Part shown: positions 55,016 through 64,000 of the stretch, piece by piece
Numbering within the stretch: position 1 is the stretch's first letter
How the letters are laid out: each line of letters opens with the position of its first letter
Origin: Natrinema salsiterrestre
GTDB taxonomy: Archaea > Halobacteriota > Halobacteria > Halobacteriales > Natrialbaceae
Reading direction: 5' to 3'
Assembly: GCF_029502005.1 (NCBI RefSeq)
Contig: NZ_JAMQOT010000004.1
Location: 310,001 to 374,000 of the forward strand
DNA: 64,000 nucleotides
Position numbers and translations under genes: made by a program
The notes under the pieces: generated by a model
Databases searched by the model: none
What the model was told of the DNA's origin: nothing
The model's input: only the letters and a program-made list of their open reading frames with translations

Positions 55016-55327
55016 TTACGGCGGGCCGACGGCGCTGAACGGCTCCGGTGGGCCGCCGTAGAAGACGATGCCGATCAGGACGGTCAGGATGAACATCCCG
55101 ACCCACATCGACGTCGTCAGACCGACGAGGTAGCCCACGCCGAGCAGTCCGGACTTCGTGTCGCGGGGTTCACCGAGGAACCACGCCGCGAGCATGATGT
55201 AGACCGGAACCAGGATGACCGCGAAGATGATCCAGGTCCCCTCGTTGGGGAAGCCGGTGAAGCCGCCGGTACCGTCGTACCCGTGATAGAGCAGTTCCAG
55301 CGGAACGGTTGTCAGTGATGTACTCAT
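55016..55327 (-). CDS. Small membrane protein of the NrfD operon, 103 aa
   Basis: Three membrane segments are likely: TWIIFAVILVPVYIMLAAWF, a stretch around GLLGVGYLVGLTTS, and MFILTVLIGIVFYGG. Its start codon overlaps the stop of the NrfD gene (ATGA). Not recognised by name. It is best regarded as an accessory subunit of the NrfD-type complex, co-translated with it. Confidence 0.7.
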   Translation of the reverse strand: MSTSLTTVPLELLYHGYDGTGGFTGFPNEGTWIIFAVILVPVYIMLAAWFLGEPRDTKSGLLGVGYLVGLTTSMWVGMFILTVLIGIVFYGGPPEPFSAVGPP

Positions 55328-56676
55328 GCTTCCACCTCCGGTTCGGTCGCTTCCTCACTGTGCTCGTGGTCGCCGCGCAGGTGTTCGATCGCGTGGAGTT
55401 CGACCACCGGGACGAGCTTCGAGAGGTTGAGGAATAAAAGTGCAACCAGGCCGACCGTCCCGACGAGCGAGAGCCACTCGATCGCGCTCGGGAAGTACGT
55501 CCCGGGCGTGTTGGCGTAGATGTCGAACGTCGGGTGCAGGAAGCCTTCGACGACGAACAGGATCTTCTCGGTCAGGGTCCCGGTGAGGATGATGCCGCTG
55601 GCGATGAGCGCTCGCTTCTTGTTGAACAGGGCCGGACGGATCCCCTGTAGGAAGATGTACACGAGCGTGCCGAAGATCATCGTCATCGCAACCTGGTAGA
55701 CCGGGTGGCCGATCTTCGCCTCGATCGCGATCGCCTTGTTGGTCGGGCCGAGGAAGACGCCGTTGATGATCGTCTGGAGCTGGAACCAGAGGAACAGCAG
55801 GGTGAAGAACCCGAGCCACAGCAACAGCCCGCGGAAGATGTCGTCGGTGATGATGTGGTCCCAGTCGTAGGCGCGACGGAACGCGTAGGAGATGATCATG
55901 ATGCCGCTGATCGCCGACATCAGCGCGATGCTCAGGAACATCGGCCCCTGAATCGCGCCGGTCCAGCCGGGCATCGCCGGCAGGAGCGCGAACAGCCACG
56001 GGATGACGCCACCGTGGAGCAAGAGCGGGGCCATGATGATGACCGCAGCGGCGAGCCACCAGACCATCCGCTGGATGACCTGATCTTCCTTCTCCGTGTA
56101 GCCGATCGTCATGATCTTGTAGACCGGCTCGAACATGTCCGGCAGATCGTCGCGCAGCCGGTTGACGTCGTAGCGCAGCGTCAGGCCGAGATAGGTCGCC
56201 GACAGCACGAAGTAGGCCGTGATGACGGTGACGTCCCACACCAGCGGCGAGTTGTTGACCGTGATGTGGTAGTGGCCGATGACGCTCGTGACCATCCGGT
56301 CCGGACGACCCATGTGGACCAGGATGTAGAAACCGGCGGCGGAGAGGCCACCGATCGTGGTCATCTCCGCGAGCCGGGCGACCGGCATGTACCGGTCCAT
56401 GCCGAGCAGGCGGACGGCGGCCGAGAGGATGATGCCGCCGTGTGCGACGCCGACCCACCAGATGAACGCGCCGATGTACAGTCCCCACGTCGAGCCGCCG
56501 CCGCTCCCCCAGTCGCCGAGGCCCGTCACGATCAGCCCTTGCTGAAGCTGGTAGGCCCAGGCGATGAGGAACGCGACGAGTCCCAGTGCCGCTGCCCCGT
56601 ACAGGGCGAAGTACTTCGTCGTGAGCGTGTTGATCGGGCGGAGGATGTCCGCCTCGGTCGGCTCCTTCGTGCTCAT
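55324..56676 (-). CDS. NrfD/PsrC-type membrane quinol-binding subunit
   Basis: 450 residues with about ten membrane segments, NrfD/polysulfide-reductase membrane-subunit family. Characteristic are SAAVRLLGMDRYMPVARLAE, GFYILVHMGRPDRM and ILRSPINTLTTKYF at the N-terminus. These proteins oxidise or reduce quinol at the membrane and pass electrons to a Fe-S partner, here the upstream gene. Its ATG overlaps the stop of the FeS gene (ATGA). No molybdopterin subunit gene is in the operon. Confidence 0.92.
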   Translation of the reverse strand: MSTKEPTEADILRPINTLTTKYFALYGAAALGLVAFLIAWAYQLQQGLIVTGLGDWGSGGGSTWGLYIGAFIWWVGVAHGGIILSAAVRLLGMDRYMPVARLAEMTTIGGLSAAGFYILVHMGRPDRMVTSVIGHYHITVNNSPLVWDVTVITAYFVLSATYLGLTLRYDVNRLRDDLPDMFEPVYKIMTIGYTEKEDQVIQRMVWWLAAAVIIMAPLLLHGGVIPWLFALLPAMPGWTGAIQGPMFLSIALMSAISGIMIISYAFRRAYDWDHIITDDIFRGLLLWLGFFTLLFLWFQLQTIINGVFLGPTNKAIAIEAKIGHPVYQVAMTMIFGTLVYIFLQGIRPALFNKKRALIASGIILTGTLTEKILFVVEGFLHPTFDIYANTPGTYFPSAIEWLSLVGTVGLVALLFLNLSKLVPVVELHAIEHLRGDHEHSEEATEPEVEA

Positions 56677-58337
56677 AGCGACACCCCGTCGACGCCGCCG
56701 ACGGTCTCGTTATCGAGGACCTCCTGTCGCTCGTCGACGAGACCCACGTCCTCGGGGGAGGTCGGTCCGTCGACCTGCTGGGCCTCCGGTCCGGGCTCCT
56801 GGCCGAGGTAGGTGACGTTCGGGTTCGTTCCGATGTCCTCGAGCAGCTGGAACGAGCTCGGTTTGCCCGTGTACTGGTGGAGTCGGAACTTCGCCTCCTG
56901 TTCGCTCCCGTCGCCGAGTTGCAGCGCCTCGAGGGCCTCGTCGCTCTCGAGGTCGACGTACTGCTGAATCGCCTCGACGGAGGCGAGGATATTCTGTTCG
57001 TTCCTGAGAATGCTGTTGTTCTCCTCGTCGCCGGGCTCGAGCCCCTCGCTGAGGATGTCGATGGCCTTCATGATCGCCAGCTGGTCCTCGGTGAACGACG
57101 AGTTATCGCTGAGGCCGTCGATCTTCTCGATCGCGGTCTCGACGTCGTCGCCCTCGCTGAGGGCGCTGTCGATGTCGTCCGGCGACGGTGCGGACTTGGA
57201 GCTCTCGATGCTGTTCGTCAGATGAACGACTGCGCGGCTCTTGGTCGGGTGTTCGCGGTGCTGGTAGGGATCGCTCTTCTCGTCATTGACGTTTCCGAAC
57301 TGGATCGCACCCGGGGGACAAGCGTCCTCACACGCCGACGTCCCGACCTTCTCTTCGCCCTGCGTCCCGTCCTGCCGGGACGGACACATCGTACACTTGC
57401 TCATCACGCCGCGAGGGGCGCGGCTGTCGACCCAGCGCTCGCCGTACTCGTAGTCGCCCATCGTGTGGCTCTCGTCGAGGTCGCTGTAGTCCGTGCTGGG
57501 CTCGTCCCACTGGAAGTAGTTGACGCCGTAGGGACAGGCGACCTGACAGTACCGACAGCCGATACAGACGTCGTAGTCGGTCAGGACGAGGCCGTCCTTG
57601 TCGCGGGTGTGACGGGCCGTCGTCGGACAGACCTTTTCGCAGGGGGCGTCCGTACAGTGCTGACACGGTCGCACCAGCATGTTGAACTCGCTCCCCATGT
57701 TGAAGTCGGTGTACGCGCCGGATTCGCTCAGCCCGTTTCCGCCCTCGGGGGAGTCGTTGTTTTCGTCCTCCCAGGCCATGACGTACATCCAGTTGACCCC
57801 GTCGTCGAGGCTGTTCTCCTGGGTACAGGCCGTCATGCAGGTCAGACAGCCGTCACAGCGCTCGAGGTCGATCGTCATCCCCCACTGCGTATCCGTGGGG
57901 CTTTCTTCGGTGGTCTCCTGCCGGGGGCCGTCTCCTGCTGCGAGGCTCTCTTCGGGTCCGTCGCTGGCGGTCCCGAAGGCACCGAGCCCGACGGCCGCCG
58001 CGCCGACGCCCATCTTCTTCATCGTCTCGCGACGGGTCTCGTCCCCGTCGCCGTCGAAGGCTCCGAGCATGTTGGAGACGGTTCCGCTCGCCTCCTCCTG
58101 TGCCGCCTCGTAGGCCTCCTTCGTCGGGCGCTCGTCCTCGCCGAACTCCTCCATCACGGCCTCGTGATGGCGTTCGTGGAATTCGGCTTCGGAGAGCTCG
58201 CCCTTCGTGACCCGCATCGCGTCCTGGGCCATTTCCATACCGAGATCGCTGTCGTACTCGGTATCGTCGAGCATCGTCTCGAGTTCGTCCTCCCACTCGT
58301 CCCCGAGCGGGTGGAATGATTCATCGTCCGTGCTCAT
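56673..58337 (-). CDS. Four-cluster Fe-S electron-transfer subunit with internal Tat signal
   Basis: 554 residues. Ferredoxin motifs: CDGCLTCMTACTQEN, CQHCTDAPCEKVCPTTA, CIGCRYCQVACPYG and CTMCPSRQ with ACEDACPPGA, for four 4Fe-4S clusters in a DmsB/NrfC-type domain. Before them are 100 acidic residues, then TRRETMKKMGVGAAAVGLG, a twin-arginine signal at residues 102-103 rather than at the N-terminus. A long C-terminal extension (about 180 residues) follows the clusters. It would lie on the outer face of the membrane, taking electrons from NrfD encoded downstream. Confidence 0.9.
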   Translation of the reverse strand: MSTDDESFHPLGDEWEDELETMLDDTEYDSDLGMEMAQDAMRVTKGELSEAEFHERHHEAVMEEFGEDERPTKEAYEAAQEEASGTVSNMLGAFDGDGDETRRETMKKMGVGAAAVGLGAFGTASDGPEESLAAGDGPRQETTEESPTDTQWGMTIDLERCDGCLTCMTACTQENSLDDGVNWMYVMAWEDENNDSPEGGNGLSESGAYTDFNMGSEFNMLVRPCQHCTDAPCEKVCPTTARHTRDKDGLVLTDYDVCIGCRYCQVACPYGVNYFQWDEPSTDYSDLDESHTMGDYEYGERWVDSRAPRGVMSKCTMCPSRQDGTQGEEKVGTSACEDACPPGAIQFGNVNDEKSDPYQHREHPTKSRAVVHLTNSIESSKSAPSPDDIDSALSEGDDVETAIEKIDGLSDNSSFTEDQLAIMKAIDILSEGLEPGDEENNSILRNEQNILASVEAIQQYVDLESDEALEALQLGDGSEQEAKFRLHQYTGKPSSFQLLEDIGTNPNVTYLGQEPGPEAQQVDGPTSPEDVGLVDERQEVLDNETVGGVDGVSL

Positions 58338-58491: not shown

Positions 58492-58503
58492 CGAATATGT
58501 TCG
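58492..58503. promoter_or_regulatory. CGAA-N4-TTCG palindrome, site 1
   Basis: CGAATATGTTCG. It lies in the gap between the Fe-S gene (155 bp to its ATG) and the end of the regulator gene. Same motif as the sites near 59.3-60.0 kb. At this distance its target is uncertain. Confidence 0.4.
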
Positions 58504-58569: not shown

Positions 58570-59244
58570 TTAAGTGTGCGCGAGCTCCTCCTCGAGGGCC
58601 TCTTCGCCGTCGAGGCTCGGGAGATCCTCGACGAATCGCTTGATGATCGCTTCCTCGGCGCGGTGAAGCGTCTCGCTACAGGTCGACTTGGCGATATCCA
58701 GGTGGTCGGCCAGTTCGGTCAGCGAGGACCGTCGCGGGGTATCGTAGTACCCCTCGTCGACGGCCGCGGCGACCACCTCGAGCTGGCGCTCCGAGAGGAG
58801 TTGGCTCTCGTGGAGCCGCTCGCGGACGTGTTCGATCCGGTACTGCAGGCCGAAGTGCTCGAGTTGTTCGGCGAGTTCGGCGAGTCGCTCTCGGGAGCCC
58901 GTGACCTCGATCGACGCCTCGCCGTCCTGAATCTCGACGGGGAGTTCGATCGGCATCCCCGACTCTCGGGAGGAGAACAGCAGGAGCGGTGCCGTCGTCT
59001 CGAAGTGGACCGTCGCTTCGTTGTCGCTCCACTGGGCGAGCGTGATTTCGGTGAGCTGGGGGTGGTCGTTCATCGCGTCCACCACTTCGGGGACGACCGG
59101 ACCGGCGATCCGAACGAGGGCGAAGCCGGACTCGGACCCGGGGACGGCCGCGAGGACCCGAAAGGTCGCCTCCGGGTAGTCCGTCGATATCTGTTGGATC
59201 CAGACCTCTTCCGGCATCGTGAGGGACAGGGTTGCTTGGGCCAT
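58570..59244 (-). CDS. Bat-type (HTH_10) transcriptional regulator
   Basis: 224 residues, ATG at 59244. The N-terminal two-thirds has the sensor-like fold of the bacterio-opsin-activator family; the C-terminal HTH_10 reads LLSERQLEVVAAAVDEGYYDTPRRS then LTELADHLDIAKSTCSETLHRAEE. It resembles the DmsR/NarO group that controls anaerobic respiration genes, but lacks the N-terminal cysteine cluster of NarO. A TATA box lies 20-26 bp before the ATG, and the CGAA-N4-TTCG site 39 bp before it. Probable autoregulation and control of the neighbouring DUF2249 genes. Confidence 0.9.
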   Translation of the reverse strand: MAQATLSLTMPEEVWIQQISTDYPEATFRVLAAVPGSESGFALVRIAGPVVPEVVDAMNDHPQLTEITLAQWSDNEATVHFETTAPLLLFSSRESGMPIELPVEIQDGEASIEVTGSRERLAELAEQLEHFGLQYRIEHVRERLHESQLLSERQLEVVAAAVDEGYYDTPRRSSLTELADHLDIAKSTCSETLHRAEEAIIKRFVEDLPSLDGEEALEEELAHT

Positions 59245-59282: not shown

Positions 59283-59294
59283 CGAATATGTTCG
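59283..59294. promoter_or_regulatory. CGAA-N4-TTCG palindrome, site 3
   Basis: CGAATATGTTCG, 39 bp upstream of the regulator's ATG (minus strand) and just beyond its TATA box GTATATAG. Same spacing as the sites before the DUF2249 genes. Confidence 0.6.
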
Positions 59295-59624: not shown

Positions 59625-59636
59625 CGAACATGTTCG
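59625..59636. promoter_or_regulatory. CGAA-N4-TTCG palindrome, site 5
   Basis: CGAACATGTTCG, a perfect 12-bp palindrome, 41 bp before the ATG of the second DUF2249 gene. Confidence 0.62.
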
Positions 59637-59676: not shown

Positions 59677-59910
59677 ATGACACGACTCGACGTCAGGGAC
59701 ATTCCGCCGGTGAACCGCCATCCGAAGATCCACGACGAGTTCGACGCCCTCGAGCCGGGCGAGTCGCTGACGATCGTCAACGACCACGAACCCAAGCCGC
59801 TGTTCTACGAGTTCGAGGCCGAGGTGGAGAGCTTCGACGCTGACGGGTACGAAGTCGAACAGGTCGCGCCCGACGAGTTCGTCGCGACGTTCCCGAAAGT
59901 AGACGCGTAG
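59677..59910 (+). CDS. DUF2249 domain protein 2
   Basis: 77 residues. LDVRDIPPVNRHPKIHDEFD at the start, a GESLTIVNDHEPKPLFYEFE loop and a C-terminal strand EFVATFPK. Belongs to DUF2249 and is more diverged from copies 1 and 3. Its own palindrome lies 41 bp upstream. Separate transcription from copy 1 is likely because of the palindromic site between them. Confidence 0.83.
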   Translation: MTRLDVRDIPPVNRHPKIHDEFDALEPGESLTIVNDHEPKPLFYEFEAEVESFDADGYEVEQVAPDEFVATFPKVDA

Positions 59911-60009: not shown

Positions 60010-60273
60010 ATGTCATCACTCACCACCGTCGTCGACCGAACCGATGCACCGCGCGATCGGCCGCGGGAGACCCTCGACGTGCGATCGCTCGGGCCGCCGA
60101 ACCCCCTCCAGCAGACCCTCGAGTTGCTCGTCGACCTGCCCGACGAGACGGTGCTGGTCCAGCGCAACGATCGCGTTCCCCAGTTTCTGTTCCCGAAGCT
60201 GGACGACCGGGGCTATCGCTACGAGACGATCGAACGCGACGACGACGTCGTGACCGTCATCTGGCGTGACTAG
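60010..60273 (+). CDS. DUF2249 domain protein 3
   Basis: 87 residues. ETLDVRSLGPPNPLQQTLEL followed by DLPDETVLVQRNDRVPQFL and a strand DDVVTVIWRD. It has a short N-terminal extension before the DUF2249 core. Copy 3 of the set; directly upstream of the haem synthase gene. Confidence 0.83.
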   Translation: MSSLTTVVDRTDAPRDRPRETLDVRSLGPPNPLQQTLELLVDLPDETVLVQRNDRVPQFLFPKLDDRGYRYETIERDDDVVTVIWRD

Positions 60274-60363: not shown

Positions 60364-61821
60364 ATGATAGATATCACAGACCGACGACGGTTCGCGGACC
60401 TCCTTGCAACGACGACCGTCGCGGCATACGTCCTCGTCGCACTCGGGACCGCGGTCTCGACGACCGATAGCGCACCGACGTGTTCGACGTTCCTCGGGTG
60501 TTCGTCCGATCCGGCACACCTCACGCTCTCCGGCGAGGTCCTGCTCTTCTGGGGCCACCGTCTCGCGGCCCTCGTCACCGGCGTCCTCGTCGCCGCGTCG
60601 GGGCTCGCCGTCAGGAAAGCCGCGGTCGGTCGCCGCGCGGCCCGGCTCGTCGGCTGTGTCGTCGTCCTCTTTCCCGTCCAGATCGCGCTCGGCGCCGCGA
60701 TCGTCGTCGGGAGCCCTGCCATCGCGAGGACGGTTCACCTCGCACTCGCGATGCTCATCTTCGCCTGCCTGCTCCTCGCGCTCGTTCGAACGCTCGATGA
60801 TCACCCACGCGAGGAGACGGCTCCGAGTGTGAACGGACCGGCCTCGAGCTCGGGAGAACAGTCGGAACGGGTTTCGGCGGCCAGCGACGACGATATCGGG
60901 GAGACGGCGACCTCGAGCGAGCGAGCGACCGGGTCCGTCTCCCGTCTCCGGCGGACGGCCGGTGCGTACCTGACGCTCACCAAACCGCGGTTGATGTGGC
61001 TGCTCTGTCTCGTCGCACTCGCGGGGATGGGGCTGGCGACGCTCACCGGCGCGCCGCTCGAGCCGACGACCGCGATCGCGACCCTCGCCGGCGGCGTCCT
61101 CGCCATCGGCGCGAGCGGAACGTTCAATCACGTTTACGAGCGCGACCGCGATCGGCGGATGAACCGAACGAACGACCGGCCGCTGGTCCACGATCTCGTC
61201 CCGGCTCGGAACGCCCTCGTATTCGGGCTCGCTCTCGCGGCGACGTCGACGATCGTGCTCGTGACGTGGGTGAACGCGCTGGCGGCGGCGCTCACCTTCG
61301 CGGCGATCGTCTACTACGCCGTCCTCTACACGGTCCTGTTGAAACCCAACACCGCCTGGAACACGGTTCTCGGCGGCGGCGCCGGGGCACTCCCCGCAGT
61401 TATCGGGTGGGCCGCCGTCACCGGAACCGTCGGCGCGCCCGCGCTCGCCCTCGCAGCGGTGATCTTCCTGTGGACGCCCGCGCACTTCTACAGCCTCGCG
61501 ATCGCGTTCCGGGAGGATTACGCGCGCGGCGGTTTTCCGATGTACCCCGTCGTCGAAGGCGTCCCGGCGGCGCGTCGACACGTCGCGTTCTACCTGGGCG
61601 CGACGTTGCTGGCCGCGAGCGTTCTCGGGTGGATCGCCGGGCTGGGATGGGTCTACGCGGTCACATCCATCGCGCTGGGTAGCGTCTTCCTGCGGTCGGT
61701 GATCCGCCAGTACCGCACGCCGACCGACGAGGTCGCGCTCCGCTCGTTCTACGTCTCGAACTACTACCTCGGAGCGATCCTCCTCGCGATCGTCCTCGAG
61801 ACGCTTCTCGTCGCCGCCTGA
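60364..61821 (+). CDS. ctaB: Fused CtaA-like / CtaB protohaem farnesyltransferase
   Basis: 485 residues. The first half (about residues 1-145) has four membrane segments and the FWGHRLAALVTG and HLALAMLIF pairs of haem A synthase-like (CtaA) proteins. A disordered linker follows. The second half (about 200-485) is CtaB, converting haem b to haem o with farnesyl diphosphate, with the signature NHVYERDRDRRMNRTNDRPL. It would supply haem o or a to the downstream haem-copper enzyme. An inverted repeat CGAAC-N5-GTTCG at 60316-60330 precedes it. Confidence 0.9.
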   Translation: MIDITDRRRFADLLATTTVAAYVLVALGTAVSTTDSAPTCSTFLGCSSDPAHLTLSGEVLLFWGHRLAALVTGVLVAASGLAVRKAAVGRRAARLVGCVVVLFPVQIALGAAIVVGSPAIARTVHLALAMLIFACLLLALVRTLDDHPREETAPSVNGPASSSGEQSERVSAASDDDIGETATSSERATGSVSRLRRTAGAYLTLTKPRLMWLLCLVALAGMGLATLTGAPLEPTTAIATLAGGVLAIGASGTFNHVYERDRDRRMNRTNDRPLVHDLVPARNALVFGLALAATSTIVLVTWVNALAAALTFAAIVYYAVLYTVLLKPNTAWNTVLGGGAGALPAVIGWAAVTGTVGAPALALAAVIFLWTPAHFYSLAIAFREDYARGGFPMYPVVEGVPAARRHVAFYLGATLLAASVLGWIAGLGWVYAVTSIALGSVFLRSVIRQYRTPTDEVALRSFYVSNYYLGAILLAIVLETLLVAA

Positions 61822-62090: not shown

Positions 62091-62633
62091 ATGACGTCAC
62101 CGATCAAACCCCCGGACGGAAACTGGTGGGATCAGCCGGTCAACAGACGCGAGTCCATCTGGCTCGGCCTCGGGGTCGGCTGGTCGCTCATTCTCTTCGG
62201 CTGGATGAGCGCCTGGACGCGCGTGGGCGACCAGAATCCCATCGGCGAGACGTTCCGGATCGACGCCGAGGACTACCGCGAGAAGCTGACCGACTACAAG
62301 GACCGGGCGACCGAGACCGACGACGGGCTCGTCCCGCCGGACCGAGACGTGTACCTGCAGGCGATGCGCTTCCAGTGGGACGGCGCGCCGGTCGTGCTCG
62401 AGACGGGGACGGAGTACGACATTCACCTGAACTCCTTCGACGTTCAGCACGGCTTCTCCCTCCGACCGGAGGACGCCCTCAGCAAACAGATCAACCTGCA
62501 GGTGCTGCCGGGCTACGAGTGGGTCGTCCCGATGACCTTCGACGAACCCGGAACCTACCACATCATCTGTAACGAGTTCTGCGGGCAGGGCCACAGGAGC
62601 ATGCACGGCACGATCGTCGTGGAGGAGGGATAA
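62091..62633 (+). CDS. coxB: Haem-copper oxidase subunit II (CuA)
   Basis: 180 residues. One N-terminal membrane helix (WLGLGVGWSLILFGW), then a cupredoxin domain outside the membrane. CuA ligands are complete: His120, Cys160, Cys164, His168 and Met171, within CNEFCGQGHRSMHG. It accepts electrons from a soluble donor, probably halocyanin, and passes them to subunit I. It is short, like ba3-type subunit II. Its TAA and the subunit I ATG are two bases apart. Confidence 0.93.
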   Translation: MTSPIKPPDGNWWDQPVNRRESIWLGLGVGWSLILFGWMSAWTRVGDQNPIGETFRIDAEDYREKLTDYKDRATETDDGLVPPDRDVYLQAMRFQWDGAPVVLETGTEYDIHLNSFDVQHGFSLRPEDALSKQINLQVLPGYEWVVPMTFDEPGTYHIICNEFCGQGHRSMHGTIVVEEG

Positions 62634-62635
62634 CG

Positions 62636-64000
62636 ATGGCACACGCGCTCGACGTCCTCGGCCTGTTCGACAACGAGTATCGCGACGACGGCTTCCGGAC
62701 CTGTTCCGTGACTGGACTCGAGGTCCACCGCTCCGTCGACAACTACGTCAAACTGTTCGGCCTCACGGCGGTCGTCGCCCTGCTGTTCGGCGGTATCTTC
62801 GCCTTTACCGTCGCGATGACCCGCTGGGAAGTGGTCGGGTTGCTCGAGCCCGCCGACTTCTACACGCACCTCAGCATGCACGCGTGGAACCTGCTGATCT
62901 TCTGGATGGTGTTCATGGAGATCGCCATCCTCTACGTCGGCGGCCCGATGGTGCTCGGCAGACGGCTCCCGATCACGACGGTCGCGAAGGCGGGATGGGC
63001 CGTCATGGTGGGGGGCGCCGTGCTGGTCAACTACGCCATCTGGACCACCGAACCGCCTAACGAGGCACCGCTGTTGACCGCCTACGTGCCGATGCCCGTC
63101 TCACCGCTGTTCTACGCCGGTGCGATCGTCTTCATCTTGGGCACCGTCGTCGCGGCGCTGCCCTTCTTCGCGACGATGTGGTACGAGAAGCGCGAGAATC
63201 CGAAGAAGACGCTCCCGCTCGTCAGCTTCGCCGCGTTCGTCACGTCGATCATCGCCGTCGAGGCGCTGGTCGGCGGCCTGTTCGCCTTCGTCCCCACCCT
63301 GTTCTGGCGACTCGAGCTGATCGAGTGGTGGGACGCGGCCTGGTACCGCCAGATGTACTGGATCATCGGTCACGGGACTCAGCAGATCAACCTCGTGGCG
63401 ATGATCGCGGTCTGGTACTTCCTGACCCACGTCGTCGCCGGCGCGGAGGTCGTCAGCGAGAAAGTCTCGCGGACGGCCTTCATTCTCTACCTGTTCTTCA
63501 TCAACCTCGGGGCGGCACACCACCTGCTGTCCGATCCCGCGGTGTCGACCGGCTGGCGGCTCTGGAACACGTCCTACGCGTTCTACGGGGCGACGTTCGC
63601 GAGTCTGATCCACGCCTTCGCCATCCCGGCGGGGATCGAGGCCGGGCGTCGCAAGCGCGGGAAAGGTGGTGGCCTCTTCGGCTGGCTGACGTCCGCCCCC
63701 TGGTCGAACCCGGTGTTCTCGTCGACGATCTTCTCGATCATCCTCTTCGGATTCCTCGGCGGAATCACGGGCGTCATGATGGGACAACTCCAGCTCAATA
63801 TGACCTGGCACAACACGTTCGCCACGGTCGGCCACTTCCACGCCACGGTCGTCCTCGGCACGACGGTCGCGTTCATGGGCCTGATCTTCTTCGTGATCCG
63901 AACGATGTTCATGCGCCAGTACATCTCCGAACGGCTCGCGTCGATCCAGCCGTTCTTCTACTCGGCTGCGATGGGCATTGCCGTCCTGATGATGATGTAC
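62636..64000 (+). CDS. B-family haem-copper oxidoreductase subunit I (NOR-like active site), partial
   Basis: The first 455 codons, open at the window end. It resembles Thermus ba3 subunit I: HH at 295-296 followed by SDP, and GGGLFGWLTSAPWSNP. Low-spin haem ligands are His82 and His402, the high-spin haem ligand is His400, and CuB ligands are His246, His295 and His296. In oxygen reductases the CuB-helix motif is GHxxxY, whose tyrosine is cross-linked; here it reads GHGTQQ, with Gln250 at that place. This fits a nitric-oxide-reductase-like enzyme of the type with a CuA subunit II. O2 reduction is therefore doubtful. Confidence 0.9.
   Translation, partial: MAHALDVLGLFDNEYRDDGFRTCSVTGLEVHRSVDNYVKLFGLTAVVALLFGGIFAFTVAMTRWEVVGLLEPADFYTHLSMHAWNLLIFWMVFMEIAILYVGGPMVLGRRLPITTVAKAGWAVMVGGAVLVNYAIWTTEPPNEAPLLTAYVPMPVSPLFYAGAIVFILGTVVAALPFFATMWYEKRENPKKTLPLVSFAAFVTSIIAVEALVGGLFAFVPTLFWRLELIEWWDAAWYRQMYWIIGHGTQQINLVAMIAVWYFLTHVVAGAEVVSEKVSRTAFILYLFFINLGAAHHLLSDPAVSTGWRLWNTSYAFYGATFASLIHAFAIPAGIEAGRRKRGKGGGLFGWLTSAPWSNPVFSSTIFSIILFGFLGGITGVMMGQLQLNMTWHNTFATVGHFHATVVLGTTVAFMGLIFFVIRTMFMRQYISERLASIQPFFYSAAMGIAVLMMMY

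Follow-up and report, generated by a model that had tools for sequence, protein, structure and literature searches.

The window, that is, the whole 64-kb stretch of DNA that was analyzed, closes on a gene for a heme-copper subunit I that is assigned below to the eNOR family (Table 1). The gene runs past the last base of the window. The full-length protein was read from the genome sequence, which comprises 4.79 Mb in 27 contigs. It has 580 amino acids (L003:12636-14378), of which the window covers the first 455, and its gene ends at C22:374378, 378 bases beyond the window. Directly upstream is a gene for the CuA subunit II that had been claimed in the initial annotation, and its set of CuA ligands is complete. 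The fused gene farther upstream, in which the half-size CtaA-like domain comes first and the heme O synthase behind it, points to a role in heme O/A supply. Genes for heme O synthase were also found beside 20 of 40 haloarchaeal eNOR loci and 20 of 45 distant ones. Three DUF2249 genes had been proposed for the region; Pfam confirmed two of them (b and c), and the third (a) was recognized from its position and its paralogue-like sequence. The neighboring gene previously described as a redox-type regulator encodes, according to Pfam, an HTH_10 (bacterioopsin-activator-like) protein.

Table 1. Genes and motifs of the predicted eNOR locus. Positions are those of the window unless a contig is given.
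Feature	Position	Strand	Evidence and remarks
NrfD-type membrane protein paired with the FeS protein	55324..56676	-	PF03916, 76 bits; membership in the system uncertain
4Fe-4S dicluster protein	56673..58337	-	PF16947, PF13247; membership in the system uncertain
Denitrification motif CGAATATGTTCG	58492..58503		Upstream of the FeS/NrfD pair
HTH_10 (bacterioopsin-activator-like) regulator	58570..59244	-	PF04967, 65 bits; divergent
Denitrification motif CGAATATGTTCG	59283..59294		Between regulator and DUF2249a
DUF2249-like protein a, 75 aa	59380..59607	+	Position and paralogue-like sequence (LDVRE...); relatives have homologues in the equivalent position
Denitrification motif CGAACATGTTCG	59625..59636		About 40 bases upstream of DUF2249b; motif from PMC11218638
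DUF2249 protein b	59677..59910	+	PF10006, 84 bits; first gene after the motif at 59625
DUF2249 protein c	60010..60273	+	PF10006
Half-size CtaA/COX15-like domain fused to heme O synthase (CtaB)	60364..61821	+	TIGR01473, 288 bits, over cut-off; PF01040, PF02628
eNOR subunit II	62091..62633	+	Full CuA motif H120, C160, E162, C164, H168, M171; Glu21 where ba3 has Glu-II-15
eNOR subunit I (predicted heme-copper NO reductase)	62636..64000	+	Open reading frame open at window end; PF00115, 176 bits
Conserved 240-aa membrane/Ig-fold gene	C22:374408-375130 (L003:14408-15130)		Outside the window, 29 bases after subunit I

Beyond the window, the subunit I gene is followed by a gene for a 240-amino-acid protein, a copper P-type ATPase gene, a hydrolase gene, and, at a distance of 5.1 kb from subunit I, nirK (TIGR02376 over cut-off). 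NirK was found within about 10 kb of 13 of the 40 haloarchaeal eNOR loci. The copper ATPase is likely to supply copper for the metal sites. Its gene (L003:15704-18205), which encodes a Cys-rich stretch at the N terminus, has counterparts near eNOR in 29 of the 40 haloarchaeal loci. At the other end of the cluster, the 4Fe-4S/NrfD pair may form a quinol-linked electron-transfer module, with the 4Fe-4S protein possibly acting as an electron-transfer partner of eNOR. The pair adjoins eNOR only in close relatives. It spans 55324-58337 and has a denitrification motif of its own at 58492, and no molybdopterin subunit was seen nearby.

An RNA-seq study of Haloferax mediterranei linked DUF2249 genes, bacterioopsin-activator-like regulators, and the motif CGAAYATDKTYG to denitrification (PMC11218638). 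Within the window, the motif is confined to three palindromic sites, all of them in the eNOR cluster. Six strand matches were found in the window, compared with 0.11 expected from shuffling, and the loci of 40 relatives held 26 motif sites in 781 kb, compared with about 1 expected at the shuffle rate of the window. The operon would probably be switched on together with other denitrification genes. The exact motif was not found upstream of nirK or the qNOR genes of the same genome. Single-mismatch palindromic motifs are located upstream of both of its qNOR genes (L016:6924 and L018:12477). A scan with the related pattern CGAANATNNTTCG yielded nothing useful.

All six metal-ligand histidines previously attributed to subunit I are present and align with those of the Thermus thermophilus ba3 oxidase: H82 with H72, H246 with H233 (CuB), H295 and H296 with H282 and H283 (CuB), H400 with H384, and H402 with H386. 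The sequence GHGTQQ of subunit I aligns over GHPIVY of Thermus ba3. This places Gln249 at Val236 and Gln250 at Tyr237, which is the cross-linked active-site Tyr of helix VI that the initial annotation considered to be replaced, and the phmmer alignment gave the same register. In a multiple alignment of 147 heme-copper sequences (121 from the eNOR group and 26 others), the QQ motif was found in all 121 relatives and Tyr in all 26 sequences outside the group, ba3 and aa3 types included. Because Gln is present in every one of the relatives, Gln250 can be attributed neither to chance nor to a sequencing slip. The structure comparison also brought up solved Thermus ba3 structures that carry mutations at Val236.

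An alternative active-site Tyr was considered and rejected. In the C-family, as in cbb3, the Tyr comes from helix VII and precedes the first CuB His by 6 residues. At this position, subunit I has Ile289, and the distant relatives all have Ile or Leu. The C-terminal part of subunit I beyond the window, which had been suggested as a place where a functional Tyr might be encoded, adds no active-site Tyr. Tyr285, Tyr314, and Tyr317 are invariant in eNOR and missing from the B-family, and none of them aligned with a known cross-link position. More broadly, residues that show little or no variation across the two eNOR tiers, among them Q249, Q250, N252, A255, Y285, N311, S313, Y314, Y317, H326, and E95, are missing from the 14 B-family oxidases compared. 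For example, H326 is invariant in the eNOR clade, and Thr312 occupies the same position in ba3. AlphaFold gave subunit I (model built from 21 sequences, pLDDT 70.5) a ba3 fold; the quality of the model does not suffice to judge the geometry of the active site, and only its fold was used.

The eNOR family of heme-copper NO reductases was reportedly put forward by Hemp and Gennis in 2008, and its activity is said in later citing papers to have been established by Murali et al. (PNAS, 2024). In a maximum likelihood tree (LG+C20, 70 rows), the sequences with Gln were split from those with Tyr with support of 100/100, so that subunit I groups with the Gln-bearing clade, apart from the ba3 O2 reductases. 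It falls inside a clade of 26 rows from haloarchaea and Rhodothermota (100/100). The tree was constructed without sNOR, gNOR, bNOR, and nNOR sequences, and antisense qNOR frames and one very long branch (L199) were left out. The matches fetched in a plasmid search for sNOR, gNOR, and bNOR references were Tyr-bearing oxidases or eNORs. A published key to the site residue lists Tyr for O2 reductases, Glu for cNOR and qNOR, Asn for sNOR and CuANor (bNOR), Asp for gNOR, and Gln for eNOR (PMC8756737, Table A4). The same study reported eNOR from Natronomonas and other Halobacteria, from Chloroflexi, and from Proteobacteria (PMC8756737), and eNOR has been included among the biochemically characterized NORs (PMC11388526).

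The clade placement and the published residue key together identify the gene as an eNOR. We estimate a probability of about 0.92 that subunit I belongs to an eNOR, i.e., a CuA-containing NO reductase that is derived from B-family (ba3-type) oxygen reductases and works in denitrification. The reading as an NO reductase is thus supported, and the initial guess of a B-family-derived NOR type can be narrowed to eNOR. The novelty is smaller than was assumed at that stage because eNOR is a described family that has already been reported in Halobacteria.

The ba3 cytochrome c oxidase of T. thermophilus has in common with the predicted eNOR its fold, the six His ligands, a CuA subunit, and equivalents of the K-path residues Ser309, Tyr248, and Glu-II-15. 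It differs in that Tyr237 and Val236 are changed to Gln, Trp239 to Asn, Thr312 to His, and Tyr244 to Ile or Val in eNOR, which forms a separate clade. The ba3 sequence of the same genome (C20:756199) is 28% identical to subunit I. The shared features, as well as the annotation of relatives in databases as cytochrome oxidases, would be expected if subunit I were an O2 reductase that tolerates the loss of the Tyr, with a Gln that is merely structural, or a bifunctional enzyme serving mainly for O2 at low tension. However, this is very unlikely, given that all of the B- and A-family sequences examined carry Tyr and all members of the clade carry Gln. To our knowledge, all known O2 reductases keep the active-site Tyr. 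Furthermore, the locus is linked to nirK and to the denitrification promoter motif, and the organism already possesses four sequences of the aa3 type and one of the ba3 type. Membership in another B-derived NOR family is even less probable: sNOR, bNOR, gNOR, and nNOR are unrepresented in the tree, so that their exclusion rests on the residue key, but the Asn of sNOR and CuANor (bNOR), the Asp of gNOR, and the Glu of cNOR and qNOR are all replaced here by the clade-invariant Gln that the key gives for eNOR.

The cNOR enzymes (NorBC) also lack the active-site Tyr, but in them the site is occupied by Glu and the accompanying subunit carries c-type heme, in contrast to the Gln and CuA subunit found here. 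The qNOR enzymes (NorB/NorZ) have the same proposed reaction and are likewise associated with NirK. However, they constitute another family, with Glu at the site, FeB, and a fused, quinol-oxidizing N terminus.

The predicted eNOR has in common with the described eNOR family Gln at the Tyr position, a CuA subunit II upstream, the B-family fold, and presence in Halobacteria. One proton channel is retained in the family and may be kept in part here. Among the positions of the ba3 K-path, Glu21 of subunit II, Ser323, and Tyr261 are invariant, while Tyr244 is replaced by Ile or Val and Thr312 by an invariant His. Glu21 matches Glu-II-15 of the T. thermophilus subunit II. In the proposed mechanism, the electron donor would probably be a halocyanin-type blue copper protein, from which electrons would enter at the CuA of subunit II and move by way of heme b to the site of the high-spin heme and CuB. 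There, the expected reaction would be 2 NO + 2 e- + 2 H+ -> N2O + H2O, in an active site that would operate without a cross-linked Tyr and in which the invariant Gln249 and Gln250 take the places of ba3 Val236 and Tyr237 and His326 that of Thr312. The cytoplasmic proton path appears to persist with modifications, by way of Ser323, Tyr261, and the subunit II residue Glu21, and its retention would make turnover probably electrogenic, unlike that of cNOR. The operon includes a heme O synthase gene of its own.

Homologues with at least 61% identity to the predicted eNOR were found in 71 of 391 haloarchaeal genomes. A scan of named genomes gave 80 loci, with identities of 62 to 97% in haloarchaea and 64 to 68% in Salinivenus and Rhodothermus. 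Sequences of a second tier, with 40 to 45% identity, came from Hydrothermarchaeota, Chloroflexota, Gemmatimonadota, Proteobacteria, Leptospiraceae, and others. Plasmids of Thermus also carry relatives, which are annotated as cytochrome oxidases. In one genome (G353, contig C16:961-2666), subunit I is split into two overlapping frames, reflecting a frameshift or an assembly error.

The main undescribed element at the locus is the linked third gene, which codes for the 240-amino-acid protein. It accompanied subunit I in all 40 haloarchaeal loci examined and was also present, with 35 to 38% identity, in the eNOR loci of Rhodothermus and Salinivenus. At some few loci, the two are separated by CtaB. 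The extra gene sets the clade of haloarchaea and Rhodothermota apart from the rest of the eNOR family, as it was absent from all 45 distant eNOR loci. Within the 391 haloarchaeal genomes searched, it was found in 70 of the 71 with eNOR, the exception being a genome in which the eNOR gene is cut by a contig end, and genomes with two eNORs carry two copies. The gene was found without eNOR in three genomes, as fragments only (L206:4239-4858, L207:4441-4873, and L208:4405-4689), which we interpret as relics of the eNOR operon. For example, in the first of these, the initial 73 residues of subunit II run into residues 108 to 240 of the third protein, and subunit I is gone.

The 240-amino-acid protein has three long N-terminal helices that are predicted to span the membrane and an invariant pair of cysteines, C160 and C169. 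Over 59 sequences, W25, W39, K43, W55, Y77, G78, P86, H89, and P94 are among the other invariant residues. Its AlphaFold model (pLDDT 89) combines the long N-terminal helices with a seven-stranded Ig-like domain. The protein had no Pfam or NCBIfam match, apart from a weak bacterial Ig domain in some relatives; a search of PDB sequences likewise gave at most a weak bacterial Ig match in some members, and Foldseek returned generic Ig/FnIII-type matches only, none of them below E=0.001. No published description of the protein was found, and the available eNOR papers describe two subunits. The conserved linkage suggests that the protein probably belongs to the complex as a third subunit or serves as a dedicated factor in its assembly.

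NirK was detected in 67 of the 71 haloarchaeal genomes with eNOR, compared with 148 of the 320 without it (Fisher p=2e-15, uncorrected for shared ancestry), and NosZ in 38 of the 71. With a detection threshold of E<=1e-80 for qNOR, both NOR types coexist in 45 of the 391 genomes, and 26 genomes have eNOR without a detected qNOR. Of these 26, 25 have NirK and 8 have both NirK and NosZ. The genome studied here has eNOR, two qNORs, NosZ, and two NirK-like genes. One of the qNORs was matched to solved qNOR structures. With two qNORs and NosZ available, eNOR is dispensable for a complete pathway in this organism, which counts against the proposed role. The second NirK-like gene (G000, contig C11:606873-607967) is 92% identical to the one adjoining eNOR.

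A survey named qNOR as the sole NOR of haloarchaea (PMC8400030). The eNOR counts conflict with this statement. Annotation pipelines label eNOR as cytochrome c oxidase or return no more than a weak match to CtaD that falls well short of the cut-off. Surveys would score NOR as missing in the 25 genomes that have eNOR and NirK and lack a detected qNOR, although a plausible one is present. Thus, 25 of the 59 NirK-positive, qNOR-negative genomes have a plausible NO reductase. We somewhat favor the view that eNOR of haloarchaea and Rhodothermota is a three-component system, with the 240-amino-acid protein as an obligate, previously unrecognized subunit or dedicated assembly factor, and that many haloarchaeal nitrite reducers surveyed as lacking NOR have it as their sole detectable NOR of the respiratory type. 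The 240-amino-acid protein offers a specific candidate, open to experimental test, for a component so far missing from these enzymes.
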